From IMG/VR virus record IMGVR_UViG_3300022920_000002, positions 36,898-100,897 of that record: DNA of 64,000 nt; one strand, 5' to 3'. Shown one piece after another: positions 36,629 through 58,871 of the stretch; positions within the stretch are counted from its first letter, which is position 1; every line of letters begins with the position of its first letter. The notes below the pieces were generated by a model. That model ran no database searches, had not been told where the DNA came from, and saw only the letters and a list, made by a program, of their open reading frames with translations. Origin of the DNA: a virus. A program made the position numbers and the translations under genes.

Positions 36629-37912
36629 TTATTGGGGCATCTTCAAAAACACCTTCATTGTACCTTCATCAATCCTAGTAATTTGAACAGTGATCTTGTC
36701 ACCAGGGTTAAATACAGTCATTGTTTCTTCTCCAATCTCACTAACGTGTAGTAATCCAGTTACACCATCTTCAATATTAATAAACAAACCATAGTCTTTT
36801 TTAGACTTAACAGTTGCTTCTACCACTGATGGTATTGAGTATCTAGTAGATATGTTAATCCAAGGATTAACTTCTACGACATCCTTCTGAGTTAACGTAA
36901 TTTTATTATTACTAATAATATCTTTTACTTTAAACGCAATAGCATCTCCTGGTTTAATCTCTCTAGCTTTGAATTTAGTTAAAGTATCTTCGTCTAAGTC
37001 GTTGTTGTGAATCATACCTGTTAAGCATTTATCAAATTCAACAAATACACCATACTTAGCAGTTCCAGTTACTAGACCCTGCTTATCTTCAGAAATACTT
37101 TCTTTTAAATTATCTATAGCTTGTGGTATAAGTGCTTGTAAGTATTTTCTATGTGATACTACAATCGTGCCTCTGTCTGCTGAGAAGCTTACTGGTACAA
37201 CATAAATTTCTTCACCTATAATAGAACTAAAGTCTGATAGTTTATTAATACCTGCAAGTGAACCTGGCATAAAGCAATTAATACCCTGTACTTCTACAAC
37301 GTATCCGCCATTTTCAATCATGTTCTTTACAGTACCGATCCATGCAGTTCTACCTTCCTCAATTCCATTTCTTAAATCTGTGAATGTTTTATGCTTAATA
37401 CCACCAGTAATAGTTCCTGCTAGTAATCCTTTTGTTTCTGTAATTAAGACTGCAGTCTCATCACCAACCGAACTAGCTTTTACAATATCAGATTCTTTAC
37501 CGAAGTTAACGTAAACTAATTCTCTATAACCAACATCAACTGTGATATATTGTTGATCTATTCCGTAAATAATACCTTCATGGATTTCACCCTCATTAAC
37601 ATTAGGTTTTATATCTTGTCCAAACTCTTCCATTGTATCGTAGAGTTGCTGCGCATACGGCTCTCTAGAAAATACCTTATCACCATCTTTAGTTTTAATA
37701 TGTGGGTTTGGTTTTCTATACCTAGTTGGGCATGTGCTTTCGTAAGCATCCCATAGGAACTCTCCATTTTCATCGTAAAATTCGTCGTGTTGTCCAACAA
37801 CTTCTTCTGGCTTTGTGGTTGCCGTTGTTGTTTCTTGGTTTGTAGTTTCTTCTTTAACTACGGTGATTGTTGCATCGGAAGTATCTCCGATTCGTTTTCT
37901 CTTCTGAGTCAT
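36629..37912 (-). CDS. Ribosomal protein S1-like RNA-binding protein
   Basis: 427 aa with four S1 (OB-fold) repeats, at about 105-175 (EGIIYGIDQQYITVDVGYRELVYV), 184-258 (GTVKNMIENGGYVVEVQGINCFMPGS), 271-342 (GLVTGTAKYGVFVEFDKCLTGMIHNNDL) and 358-427 (VVEATVKSKKDYGLFINIEDGVTGLLHVSEI). An acidic, Thr-rich 100-residue N-terminus precedes them. Bacterial S1 recruits mRNAs to the 30S subunit; phage-borne S1 homologues are known in marine phages. Since phage genes here have A/T-rich leaders without Shine-Dalgarno sites, a role in favouring phage mRNA is plausible but inferred. A GATATATAATA element lies 42 bp upstream. Confidence 0.85.
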   Translation of the reverse strand: MTQKRKRIGDTSDATITVVKEETTNQETTTATTKPEEVVGQHDEFYDENGEFLWDAYESTCPTRYRKPNPHIKTKDGDKVFSREPYAQQLYDTMEEFGQDIKPNVNEGEIHEGIIYGIDQQYITVDVGYRELVYVNFGKESDIVKASSVGDETAVLITETKGLLAGTITGGIKHKTFTDLRNGIEEGRTAWIGTVKNMIENGGYVVEVQGINCFMPGSLAGINKLSDFSSIIGEEIYVVPVSFSADRGTIVVSHRKYLQALIPQAIDNLKESISEDKQGLVTGTAKYGVFVEFDKCLTGMIHNNDLDEDTLTKFKAREIKPGDAIAFKVKDIISNNKITLTQKDVVEVNPWINISTRYSIPSVVEATVKSKKDYGLFINIEDGVTGLLHVSEIGEETMTVFNPGDKITVQITRIDEGTMKVFLKMPQ

Positions 37913-52092: not shown

Positions 52093-52722
52093 TTAAAACT
52101 CAAATGGGATATAATCATCATCTTTATCCATACCGTACCAGACACCTTTGTTTTGCCAGTAGATCCATCCATACTTATCGTCGATAACTACTTCAAACTT
52201 ACCCTTTGGCATCTCCACGCTCTTCTTAGGAGCCCTGGCGATATGCTTAAGTACAGGTACACCATCTTCCCATGTTTTCTTAGTAGATCTAGCATCAACT
52301 ATTGCGCCATCACCAAATCCATGGTGAAATTCAGCACCTTCGATCTCATCAGCTAATAACATAGTCGGAGTTTTATCTGATTCATTAACTACTGATTCGT
52401 TTTCAGGCATTACTCTTTTATACTTAGCTTGTAATTCTTTAAATTCATCTTTAAGGTTAGAAGAGATTTTCTTCTTAATACCCCAGTTATCTCCAAAGAT
52501 TAGTGGAGCTACAGCGCCCATACCAGCAGTCTTAACTTGCTTCTCGTATTTTCTAGCATAAGTAGAGCTATCAAACCAGTCTAATGCAGCCTGAGCCATA
52601 TCCTTAGATATCTTAACACCTTCTATTTCAGAAGTACTACCTTTAACTACCATTTTAAATAGAGTTTTAGCAGGAGCTTGTCTTGCCTCATTTAATTCGT
52701 TTATTGACTTGATATATTTCAT
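52093..52722 (-). CDS. Leader-tagged internal-head-protein candidate (209 aa)
   Basis: 209 aa. The N-terminus MKYIKSINELNEARQAP resembles the T4 capsid-targeting sequence (MKTYQEFIAEA); LNE|A would be a cut site for the prohead protease. The body is soluble, with a basic middle and a C-terminal segment containing KFEVVIDDKYGWIYWQNKGVWYGM. Another SVVNES motif occurs near residue 112. No enzyme motif recognised. It is the last gene of the cassette before the terminator. Predicted role: protein packaged in the head and injected with DNA. Confidence 0.6.
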   Translation of the reverse strand: MKYIKSINELNEARQAPAKTLFKMVVKGSTSEIEGVKISKDMAQAALDWFDSSTYARKYEKQVKTAGMGAVAPLIFGDNWGIKKKISSNLKDEFKELQAKYKRVMPENESVVNESDKTPTMLLADEIEGAEFHHGFGDGAIVDARSTKKTWEDGVPVLKHIARAPKKSVEMPKGKFEVVIDDKYGWIYWQNKGVWYGMDKDDDYIPFEF

Positions 52723-55535: not shown

Positions 55536-57587
55536 TTACAGGGTTTCAATTGCATTATCTTTCATCCACTTCTCTAGTTTCTCAACAGCAATATTAAATA
55601 TTTTACTTCTGTTAATAGACATTCCAAATGAATTAAAGTATTCTTTCATCATATAGTATGCTGGTTCTATCTCTTCTTTATTAGCAATTCGATCTTGGAT
55701 ATGTTTACTAACCTCATACGCAGCTTCAGCACCTACAAACACAAAAGCAGTATAACCTGTTAAGTCGTTCCAATGTAGATCTGATAATTTGTAACCTATT
55801 TCACCTAGTTCTTTTTTTCTTGCAGCTGTATCGAATTTACGATCTCCCATTTGGTTTAACCAAAAAGACATGTAGTTAGATTCTTTACCATACATCTTTT
55901 CTACAAATCCTCCAGCAACAAGTTCTTTTATTTTAACTCCAATATACTTAGGGTATTTAATCTTTCCATACTGCTTAATAAATCTATCGTATTCGTAGTT
56001 ACCGAAATATTCATTAAGGGTTTTAACAAATCCACTTTTAACAACTACTGTCTCATTTGCTTTTCTCATATCAATCCAAACTCTAATAATATCTGCATAG
56101 TCTTTAGAAGTTAAGCCCTCTTTTTCACCATGTGTAGTTTCACTATTACGATCCCACATTTTTTGAGCAAAAGCATCGATGTTACCTTCTTTAAAAGTCA
56201 TAACAGCTCTTTGAGTACCATTATCTAATAATTGAAATGTTTCTTCTTTTTCATCATGTGGATCTAATCTCCAACCAGCTGAATTATTAACTCTAATATC
56301 TAAACCACTAGAGTTACTATCAACCACAACAGTCCAAGGACCTTCTGATTGATATGTTTTACCTTTTTTATATTTGATTTTACCTTCATTAACTGATTCT
56401 TTAAGACCTAATGCTTTATTAACTAGATCTTCAATCACACTAGAGTAATCATCCTTTAAAGCCCATTTAATTGTTTGGCCTTCACTTCTTGCTTTCTTGT
56501 TTATCCATTTAAGGTGTGTTGCATCAGTAAGAAAATCAGAAGCTTCTTTTGCAATTCCTTTTGGATCTATTTTCCATTCATCAATTGTAGTACCAAAGTT
56601 ATTACCGTATGTAGAACCATTAGTTCTTTTAAGGTTATTGATTCCACCAATCTTAATGTATATGTCATTATTAATAGGCATTGCTTCAAAGAAAACTACA
56701 TCTCTTTCTTCTGGGTTGTTTTCACCAGATACTTGATCGATAGCATAAGTACTATGAACTCTCCATGTAGGTTCGCCTTTTACATTGTACGCTGCTGAGT
56801 GTGTATCTGCACCGAATTCAGAAGCCTTTAACTTATATGCTTTAGCTTCGTTAACTGATTCAGTAAATCCTCTTTCTTTAGCATCATTCTTTACCCATTC
56901 TCTATCTTTAGATGAAAGCTTTTTAAAATCTTTATCAAATTTATGATGTGCAATTAATTCATAAACATCTTCTAATTCTACTGACTCGCTAAATAGAGTT
57001 TCTCCAGTATTAGACTCAACACTTATTACAGCATTAGGATATTGTTTTTGTAATTCATTAAATACGGCAGGAACCGCAGCTGGTGTATCAACTAATTCTT
57101 GTTTAACAACCATACCACTATTAATTACTACAATACTTACAGGATAACTTCCTTTCTTTGCAGCTTTATGGATTGCGCCTCTTTTAGCTTCACCTATTGG
57201 TTTAATGTACTTCATTTGGTTTGACTCTTTCATAGCGTCTATTTCTTTTGATTTTTCAATTGCCCAATCAACACCTTCATCTCCACCCCAGATTAACCAG
57301 GCTACGTAGCCTCTGTCTTTCCATGGAGTTGCTTTTAATTCAGGTTTGATTGATGAGTTTTTTCTGTGTCTATTGAATGCGGACATTCTTTTAACTGTAT
57401 CTGTACTAAGGTTTTCACCTTTAGCCAGTTGATGAGCTCTTGCCCAACCTACTGGAGTTCCAGCATCAACTTCGTCTCTACCATGTTCCTCTTTCCAGTC
57501 AATTGCCTTTTGAGCATTCTTCTTTGCAGCAGCAGGATAGTCATTCCAAGTATCTTCTTCGTTTAATACAGATTCTATGTACTTCAT
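55536..57587 (-). CDS. Modular leader-tagged protein (683 aa) with internal leader copies
   Basis: 683 aa. The N-terminus MKYIESVLNEED holds a capsid-leader-like sequence. Residues 16-118 form a domain common in phage virion or head-maturation proteins (DWKEEHGRDEVDAGTPVGWARAHQLAKGE, RGYVAWLIWGGDEGVDWAIEKSKEID). A second leader, MKYIKPIGEAKRG, sits at 125-137, and ESVNEA (243-248) and ESVNEG (397-402) recur at later module boundaries. The remainder holds several soluble domains (one with HHKFDKDFKKLSSKDREWVKND). This suggests a fused set of internal proteins that the prohead protease may separate. No catalytic motif found. Confidence 0.6.
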   Translation of the reverse strand: MKYIESVLNEEDTWNDYPAAAKKNAQKAIDWKEEHGRDEVDAGTPVGWARAHQLAKGENLSTDTVKRMSAFNRHRKNSSIKPELKATPWKDRGYVAWLIWGGDEGVDWAIEKSKEIDAMKESNQMKYIKPIGEAKRGAIHKAAKKGSYPVSIVVINSGMVVKQELVDTPAAVPAVFNELQKQYPNAVISVESNTGETLFSESVELEDVYELIAHHKFDKDFKKLSSKDREWVKNDAKERGFTESVNEAKAYKLKASEFGADTHSAAYNVKGEPTWRVHSTYAIDQVSGENNPEERDVVFFEAMPINNDIYIKIGGINNLKRTNGSTYGNNFGTTIDEWKIDPKGIAKEASDFLTDATHLKWINKKARSEGQTIKWALKDDYSSVIEDLVNKALGLKESVNEGKIKYKKGKTYQSEGPWTVVVDSNSSGLDIRVNNSAGWRLDPHDEKEETFQLLDNGTQRAVMTFKEGNIDAFAQKMWDRNSETTHGEKEGLTSKDYADIIRVWIDMRKANETVVVKSGFVKTLNEYFGNYEYDRFIKQYGKIKYPKYIGVKIKELVAGGFVEKMYGKESNYMSFWLNQMGDRKFDTAARKKELGEIGYKLSDLHWNDLTGYTAFVFVGAEAAYEVSKHIQDRIANKEEIEPAYYMMKEYFNSFGMSINRSKIFNIAVEKLEKWMKDNAIETL

Positions 57588-57590
57588 AGG

Positions 57591-57905
57591 TTATTTATCG
57601 CCCTCTTCTTTTTTAGTTTCTTTAGCACTTCTAATCTGAGCTTTCTTAACTTCTACATTCTTCTTAATTGATTGCTTTTGAGCTTCAGCCTGCGCAAGTT
57701 GTACTTTCATCTTAGCAAGAGTACTTGACATTTTATCAGTAACTTTAGGCGATTGAGATAACTCTTTAGCCTTATTAGTTTCTTTCTCAATTTTGTCGTA
57801 CTGTTTAGTAATAACCTTGTTAATCTTTTTAACCTTCTTTTTAATGTTAGGTTTATTCTTACGATTTTCACTAGTAAAATCTTCAAGTAATTTTATATGC
57901 TTCAT
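57591..57905 (-). CDS. Leader-tagged Lys-rich small protein (104 aa)
   Basis: 104 aa. Starts MKHIKLLEDFTSENRKN, with LLE as a possible cut site. The rest is extremely Lys-rich and helical (KKKVKKINKVITKQYDKIEKE, KNVEVKKAQIRSAKETKKE), like T4 internal proteins that bind DNA in the head. The start overlaps the 80-aa gene by one base (TAATG). Predicted internal virion protein; no other family. Confidence 0.6.
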   Translation of the reverse strand: MKHIKLLEDFTSENRKNKPNIKKKVKKINKVITKQYDKIEKETNKAKELSQSPKVTDKMSSTLAKMKVQLAQAEAQKQSIKKNVEVKKAQIRSAKETKKEEGDK

Positions 57906-58147
57906 TAGAGTTGAGTTCTTTTGATTTTATTGATCTTAAGATCTACTCTTAACATCTCCATCTTTAAATCTTCTTTTTGTAAACTAAGATTTAATAATTC
58001 ATTTTTAACAGGATCCTTTTCATCTCCAAGCTTATCAGTAAGATCCTTCATTTTATCATGAGTATCTTTAATCTTACCTTGAAGATCTCTAATCTTAGTA
58101 TTATACTCAGCCTTGGTAGATTCGTATAGTGGTTTTATATGCTTCAT
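57905..58147 (-). CDS. Leader-tagged small helical protein (80 aa)
   Basis: 80 aa. Starts MKHIKPLYESTKAEYN (LYE as possible cut site). The rest is a coiled coil of alternating charges (KIRDLQGKIKDTHDKMKDLTDKL, LRVDLKINKIKRTQL). It overlaps the zincin gene stop by 4 nt and the 104-aa start by 1 nt, giving a tightly coupled three-gene set. Possibly a dimerising internal protein. Confidence 0.6.
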   Translation of the reverse strand: MKHIKPLYESTKAEYNTKIRDLQGKIKDTHDKMKDLTDKLGDEKDPVKNELLNLSLQKEDLKMEMLRVDLKINKIKRTQL

Positions 58148-58824
58148 AGTCTAAATCCTAAATGTTTTGCACGAGCTTCCCATTTAACTAGGACTTCTGC
58201 TCTTTCTTTACTATTTATCTCCCCCATCTCTTCTTTTGAGTCTAGGTATCTATTTACAGCATCAATAGTCTTCTCACCTCTCTTCTTAGCCTCAAATCTT
58301 AAGCCTTGTAGATTTGCATCAACTTCTTTAGGTAGGAGTAAATAATGCATCTTTGGTAACATGCCATTATTAATTAAAGCTCTCATCATATCATCTGGTT
58401 CATTAGGTTTACCCTTTCTATAATTACCAATGTCAATACCATCTTGAGTAATATGTTCAATCTCATGTCTTAAGACATCTGCTAAAACAAAGTAAATCTC
58501 TTCCCAATAAGTAGGTAACCAATCTGGATTACAAGCAAAATCTATATTAATAAATGGATCTTGCCAATCACCTTCATCATCTTCATCTCTGCCATCAGCT
58601 CCAGTTGAATTTAGGACTTCAAATCCCTTGCCTTTAAAATAAATTGAACAGTTTAGGTCAAATGTAAGACCTGGGTTCTGTACTTCAAATGAGTAACTAG
58701 AAGATTTTTTGCCGTTCTCAAAATCTAATACCCACTGTTTAAAACAATCACCTAATAATTTATTAGAGATAGAATCTAGTTTTGTATATCTTTCAAATAT
58801 AGCCTTTGATTTAATATGCTTCAT
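58144..58824 (-). CDS. Leader-tagged HExxH metallopeptidase candidate
   Basis: 226 aa. H120-E121-x2-H124 in VLADVLRHEIEHITQDG is the zinc-binding motif of zincin proteases, and E167 in LPKEVDAN is a possible third ligand or catalytic companion. The N-terminus MKHIKSKAIFERYT resembles the capsid leader (IFE cut site), so the enzyme would be packaged and delivered. The surroundings (residues 85-115) contain an acidic loop and an aromatic helix. Possible targets are host proteins, cell wall or a virion partner. It follows GATATATAATA by 1 bp, starts the cassette and lies below a terminator. Protease activity is inferred from the motif. Confidence 0.6.
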   Translation of the reverse strand: MKHIKSKAIFERYTKLDSISNKLLGDCFKQWVLDFENGKKSSSYSFEVQNPGLTFDLNCSIYFKGKGFEVLNSTGADGRDEDDEGDWQDPFINIDFACNPDWLPTYWEEIYFVLADVLRHEIEHITQDGIDIGNYRKGKPNEPDDMMRALINNGMLPKMHYLLLPKEVDANLQGLRFEAKKRGEKTIDAVNRYLDSKEEMGEINSKERAEVLVKWEARAKHLGFRL

Positions 58825-58825
58825 T

Positions 58826-58836
58826 TATTATATATC
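58826..58836 (-). promoter_or_regulatory. Candidate late promoter element GATATATAATA
   Basis: Exact minus-strand copy directly before the ATG at 58824, giving GATATATAATAAATG. The close spacing suggests either a near-leaderless transcript or a start-region role. It follows the terminator at 58846-58871, so the cassette begins a new transcription unit. Confidence 0.45.
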
Positions 58837-58845
58837 AAACAAAAA

Positions 58846-58871
58846 AAGGGACCTAAATTAATAGATCCCTT
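58846..58871 (-). terminator. Rho-independent terminator
   Basis: On the minus strand AAGGGATCTA-TTAATT-TAGGTCCCTT forms a stem of 10 pairs with one G-U, followed by TTTTT after the arm (TTTTTTTG in total). It ends the transcription unit carrying the 81-aa gene and upstream genes, before the leader-tagged cassette. Confidence 0.9.

Follow-up and report, generated by a model that had tools for sequence, protein, structure and literature searches.

Does an aquatic T4-like phage carry a protease in its head, to be delivered together with its DNA? The question is raised by a zincin-like open reading frame (ORF) in IMG/VR virus record IMGVR_UViG_3300022920_000002, a record of 100,897 bases of which we analysed positions 36,898 to 100,897 (64,000 nucleotides, hereafter the window). 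The initial annotation had proposed for this ORF of 226 residues a zinc site made of HEIEH at residues 120-124 and of E167, behind an N-terminal leader of the kind that addresses proteins to the phage head. The residues of the proposed zinc site were confirmed, with E167 lying within a KEVDAN motif. The N-terminal tag resembles the T4 head-loading tag, and hence the zincin is probably packed and injected with the DNA: it would represent a new zincin family and would reach the head through a T4-type capsid-targeting sequence, lose this leader to the prohead protease and be injected. The full reading that we favour, with slightly more belief than doubt, is that of a gluzincin-like metallopeptidase carried as head cargo, loaded through its leader, trimmed, injected and cutting a host protein early in infection.

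Conservation of the active site was assessed with two wide scans for the family. The first used HEIEH and KEVDAN as patterns and confirmed 367 candidate stretches in uncultivated viruses, but was for that very reason unable to test the conservation of these motifs. The second used patterns from the N-terminal half of the domain, without the active site, and gave 61 loci with 43 distinct domains. HExxH (as HEIEH, HEMEH, HELEH or HEVEH) and KE[VI]DAN were kept in all 43, with a spacing of 41 residues (38 in one), so that the motif-free search for homologues lacking HExxH, a check called for in the initial annotation, found none among these distinct relatives. In 47 diverse members the invariant columns include R119, H120, E121, E123, H124, T126, K166, E167, D169, and A170, i.e.: they concentrate on RHExEHxT and KExDA. 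This conservation is beyond chance. With HExxH and the downstream Glu both invariant, a gluzincin-type metallopeptidase is predicted, which would bind zinc and cleave proteins.

The family could not be tied to a known one by sequence: scans of the zincin protein with Pfam, PHROGs, and PADLOC gave no match, a PDB sequence search gave chance matches only, and hhalign of the single sequence against the zincin-domain protein of plasmid R388 (ArdC) returned a probability of 0.1%. Among 50,697 phage records the domain was found only in Flavobacterium immuto phages, at 37-40% identity, and the plasmids searched for it gave no match. It also occurs in long multidomain proteins on four contigs of bacterial or archaeal genome bins, two of these contigs being from Flavobacteriia-type bins. 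Given its presence in immuto phages and in these Flavobacteriia-type bins, the host range of zincin-bearing phages is probably Bacteroidota. The domain stands alone in the window and in most marine relatives; in multidomain relatives (337 or 639 residues in close relatives, 524-1079 in the immuto type, 1015-1203 in the genome-bin contigs) it shares the chain with nucleotidyltransferase/NadR-like and HAD-like modules.

The structure predicted by AlphaFold2 from the family alignment had a mean predicted local distance difference test (pLDDT) score of 92.3, residues 1-11 being the only stretch below 50. It contains a sheet, the HExxH helix and the Glu helix, these elements being modelled at high pLDDT. 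The initial annotation had asked whether the proposed ligands come together in a predicted structure, and the model goes some way with it: HEIEH belongs to helix 107-126 and E167 to the beginning of helix 165-182, which is the arrangement of gluzincins. The VIA-align list of structural matches is headed by zincins (M3 peptidases, a Bacteroides metallopeptidase, anthrax lethal factor, BlaR1, M1 peptidases, and ArdC), at weak Z scores (2.7 for ArdC). A good match was obtained to a predicted phage protein of unknown function (BFVD A0A6J5SV68, E 2e-11).

We sought to elucidate if the N-terminus is a head address. A capsid-targeting sequence of 10 residues brings the internal proteins of T4 into the head and is cut off by gp21 after L/I-x-E; such leaders are sufficient for packaging and delivery (PMC9026906). 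Leaders such as MKHIKLFEDFINE are abundant in the relatives of the phage, where a leader pattern occurs in 87 of 506 genes from 25 related loci, vs 13.5 with shuffled N-termini. Because a simple regular expression missed several leaders of the genome, we used a profile trained on 68 leaders of other uncultivated phages, none of them from the source phage or its nearest kin. Blind application to T4 (250 ORFs) ranked gp61.1 first, IPIII and IPII at 2-3, and IPI ninth; gp67, gp68, and gp21-gp24 obtained no score among these ORFs, meaning that the profile detects one type of address only. Among the 98 genes of the source genome, the gp68-like core protein ranked third and the zincin ORF seventh, at a score for which shuffled N-termini would give 0.10 genes. 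That internal head proteins of T4 are found blind, and that the core protein is leadered too, supports the head-type leader of the initial annotation. As a side observation, T4 gene 61.1 (L160 18966-19130; gp61.1 MKTFKEFIKE...), which has the top leader score, may encode a further internal head protein.

In the window protein the proposed cut site is IFE, at residues 9-11. Across the family, [ILVMF]xE ends 3-5 residues before the invariant D17 in 40 of the 47 members (the distance being 5 in one clade, 3 in the second and 4 in a single case) and 9 residues before it in one more, while such sites take up 0.85% of positions inside the domain. The site is present alike behind the short leader and at the junctions of long proteins. 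The simplest reading would be that a single protease, the prohead protease, acts on a single kind of release site; it could free the zincin domain from the larger polyproteins as well, since the same kind of site precedes the domain there.

The record holds a T4-like head cluster with major head protein, head maturation protease, core protein, and portal; the protease is a 726-residue protein lying beside the portal and major head protein genes and matching head maturation proteases (phrog_207, E 1.4e-35). The core protein (113 residues), adjoining the portal, protease, and capsid genes, is called gp68-like from its place and leader alone, and that leader (MKIYKTFEEFITE) is of the type found on the zincin ORF. 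Regarding timing, the late promoter of T4 is TATAAATA, and a motif of the genome, GATATATA, resembles it. Nineteen copies lie on the coding strand and none on the opposite one; in 60 dinucleotide shuffles the coding strand averaged 6.3 copies, with a maximum of 12. Seventeen copies are found no more than 150 bases upstream of a gene, among these genes the head protease, the core protein, the portal, other large late-type genes, and the zincin ORF, and 19 of 46 relatives have a similar motif directly before the ORF. If the motif acts as a promoter, the zincin would be made late, with the head genes. At four positions of the genome (G000 4401, 9901, 45258, and 95726) about 4 bases separate the end of GATATATA from the ATG, and three of these four genes are leadered; other copies lie 19-38 bases from the ATG, a gap of about 4 bases being too short for a normal 5' untranslated region.

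Put together, the zincin would be made late alongside the head genes, and its first 11 residues, acting as a T4-type capsid-targeting sequence, would draw it into the prohead core. Cleavage after IFE by the prohead protease would then leave a free enzyme of 215 residues in the head. This enzyme may enter the cell with the DNA and, just as infection begins, cut a protein of the host, a last step that is the least certain. Such a target is favoured over a virion component or the polyproteins, both possible, since the zincin is encoded as a separate gene that has a leader and a promoter-like motif of its own and is surrounded by other leadered genes.

Several observations weigh against this proposal. 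No line of evidence in the analysis points to a particular target, and for every family member packaging and activity are predictions. The leader of the zincin ORF is an imperfect match to the profile, its cut-site half scoring below 0, and GATATATAA, the copy of the motif before the ORF, ends 3-4 nucleotides from the ATG, too near for an ordinary 5' leader. Leader and cut site are absent in 6 of the 47 members (L062, L063, L064, L067, L068, and L070), hence head delivery by the leader route is not universal. These six begin near the mature domain, and neighbouring genes in the same loci are leadered. Of cultivated phages, only the immuto phages have the domain, in a protein of 907 residues without an MKHIK-type leader, and none of the immuto genes stands out under the leader profile. 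As for the fold, Foldseek found no solved structure in the PDB with E <0.001, and VIA Z scores reach at most 4.1 (best match of 140 residues, root-mean-square deviation 5.1), which makes the likeness to zincins suggestive, no more.

Among the alternatives, the one that survives best, unlikely as we deem it, is that the packaged zincin acts inside the particle as a second maturation protease, trimming scaffold, core, or other cargo. The leader and the late-type motif fit head assembly equally, yet the phage already encodes a head maturation protease, the zincin gene lies away from the head genes and some members are leaderless. A slightly lower probability is given to the processing of polyproteins, in which the zincin would cut itself or neighbouring modular proteins after packaging or injection. 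Autoprocessing has been proposed for the metallopeptidase (MPTase) domains of polyvalent proteins (PMC5512222), relatives hold the zincin in multidomain proteins of 337-1203 residues, and a modular ORF of 683 residues is found three genes away. Against this, the zincin stands alone in the window and most marine relatives, and the junction before the domain is a prohead-protease-type site, as behind short leaders, so that another protease suffices.

We regard as improbable a late intracellular enzyme that is never packaged, the MKHIK start being some other signal on small late genes. In its favour, leaderless relatives exist and many small genes carry the leader, but the profile finds T4 internal head proteins when applied blind, and the site that closes the leader is of the prohead-protease type and keeps a nearly constant distance from the fold. 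Least probable of all is a metal-binding protein that is not a peptidase (with a structural or oxygenase-like use of HExxH and Glu), for although no protease family matches by sequence and HExxH is also found in alpha-ketoglutarate-type enzymes (cited in PMC12633501), both glutamates, the general base within HExxH and the one downstream, are invariant, which is the pattern of zincin peptidases.

Other ORFs of the window have leader-like starts as well (Table 1). The MKHIK start is common to the zincin ORF and the next two ORFs, and an MKYI start is found on the ORFs of 683 and 209 residues.

Table 1. Zincin ORF, its parts and neighbouring features in the window (all on the minus strand).
Feature	Position	Strand	Basis or remark
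Zincin-like ORF, 226 aa (amino acids), ATG start	58144..58824	(-)	Stop codon 58144-58146; homologues found
Putative capsid-targeting leader, residues 1-11 MKHIKSKAIFE, proposed cut after E11	58792..58824	(-)	pLDDT, cut-site position, leader profile
Predicted mature zincin domain, residues 12-226	58147..58791	(-)	AlphaFold2 model m2a421da25de5, mean pLDDT 92.3
HEIEH, residues 120-124; proposed zinc ligands H120 and H124, proposed general base E121	58453..58467	(-)	H, E, H invariant
E167 of KEVDAN, proposed third zinc ligand	58324..58326	(-)	Invariant
GATATATAA, late-promoter-like motif, shared with head and tail genes	58828..58836	(-)	Upstream of zincin ORF
Terminator-like hairpin followed by T run, upstream of zincin gene	58846..58871	(-)	Similar hairpins in relatives by eye
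Neighbour ORF, 80 aa, leader-like MKHIKPLYE	57905..58147	(-)	ORF list, leader profile
Neighbour ORF, 104 aa, leader-like MKHIKLLEDFTSE	57591..57905	(-)	ORF list, leader profile
Modular ORF, 683 aa, start MKYIESVLNE, internal leader-like MKYIKPIGE at residues 125-133	55536..57587	(-)	Modules rearranged among relatives
ORF, 209 aa, leader-like MKYIKSINELNE	52093..52722	(-)	ORF list, leader profile

The modular ORF may be head cargo strung together. In another locus (L011 14522-16381), an ORF of 619 residues with a CTP_transf_like domain (E 3e-08) and the start MALQNLKTYFEG is possible further cargo.

A broader view, to which we give somewhat less than even credence, is that of a T4-like lineage with a variable injected arsenal, either leadered or strung into polyproteins and cut by the prohead protease, with the zincin as a widespread host-acting protease among its members. 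If this is true, T4-type head targeting would be a general code for loading cargo, beyond a few small internal proteins, and in marine T4-like phages the leader would single out, from nothing but the sequence, dozens of unstudied proteins that may be injected within the first minute of infection. The zincin would then be a protease delivered by injection, and its target in the host would hint at something that the phage must disarm early.

Compared to known systems, the closest is that of the T4 internal proteins. Like IPI, IPII, IPIII, and Alt, the zincin has a leader that begins with MK, is hydrophobic or aromatic around positions 4 and 7 and ends in a site of the [L/I]-x-E type, and the genome also has a gp21-type protease and a late-type upstream motif. 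Unlike the 10-residue leaders of T4, those of the zincin family usually have 13 residues, and packaging is here a prediction. The cargo differs too, a zincin instead of small basic proteins or an ADP-ribosyltransferase.

The C-terminal domain of gp088 from Flavobacterium phage vB_FspM_immuto_2-6A is homologous, with the same HEIEH and KEVDAN and an [ILVMF]xE just before, but unlike in the window ORF the zincin is the last domain of a 907-residue protein annotated NadR, with no MKHIK-type leader. This protein (L009 11892-14612) has a second HExxH domain upstream of the homologous zincin, at residues 634-678 (SFSHEMIHHMQ), with a weak match to Peptidase_M91 (E 0.0063, below cut-off). We looked in the paper on Baltic Flavobacterium phages for virion proteomics of immuto phages, and none is reported there.

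Polyvalent proteins are a second point of comparison. Iyer et al. 2017 suggested that the metallopeptidase domains of these injected proteins either process their own chain or attack the host (PMC5512222), and the window protein is like them in being an HExxH and Glu zincin in a protein thought to be injected. It differs in being a single domain with a T4-type leader (the at least two unrelated domains that define polyvalent proteins are found only in its relatives), in showing no sequence match to ArdC and in a release site of the prohead-protease type, not evidently autoproteolytic. Twelve MPTase clades have been published for polyvalent proteins (PMC5512222); the Asp described three residues after HExxH in one phage clade is Gln127 in the window protein.

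HExxH or zincin-like domains in packaged phage proteins have also been described or proposed, in the C1 domain of the phage N4 virion RNA polymerase (PMC12633501) and in P1 DdrB (PMC5512222). Both are part of large multidomain proteins, unlike the window ORF. No T4-type leader is known to us on the N4 virion RNA polymerase or P1 DdrB. In the literature we searched, we found no description of a single zincin on a T4-type leader whose cut site is also kept at the polyprotein junctions of relatives. The initial annotation knew of no packaged zincin with such a leader: this holds for the T4-type removable leader, but packaged zincin-like domains had already been described or proposed in N4 and P1 DdrB. 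Packaged zincin domains are hence a known idea, and what appears to be new is a zincin behind a T4-type removable leader.
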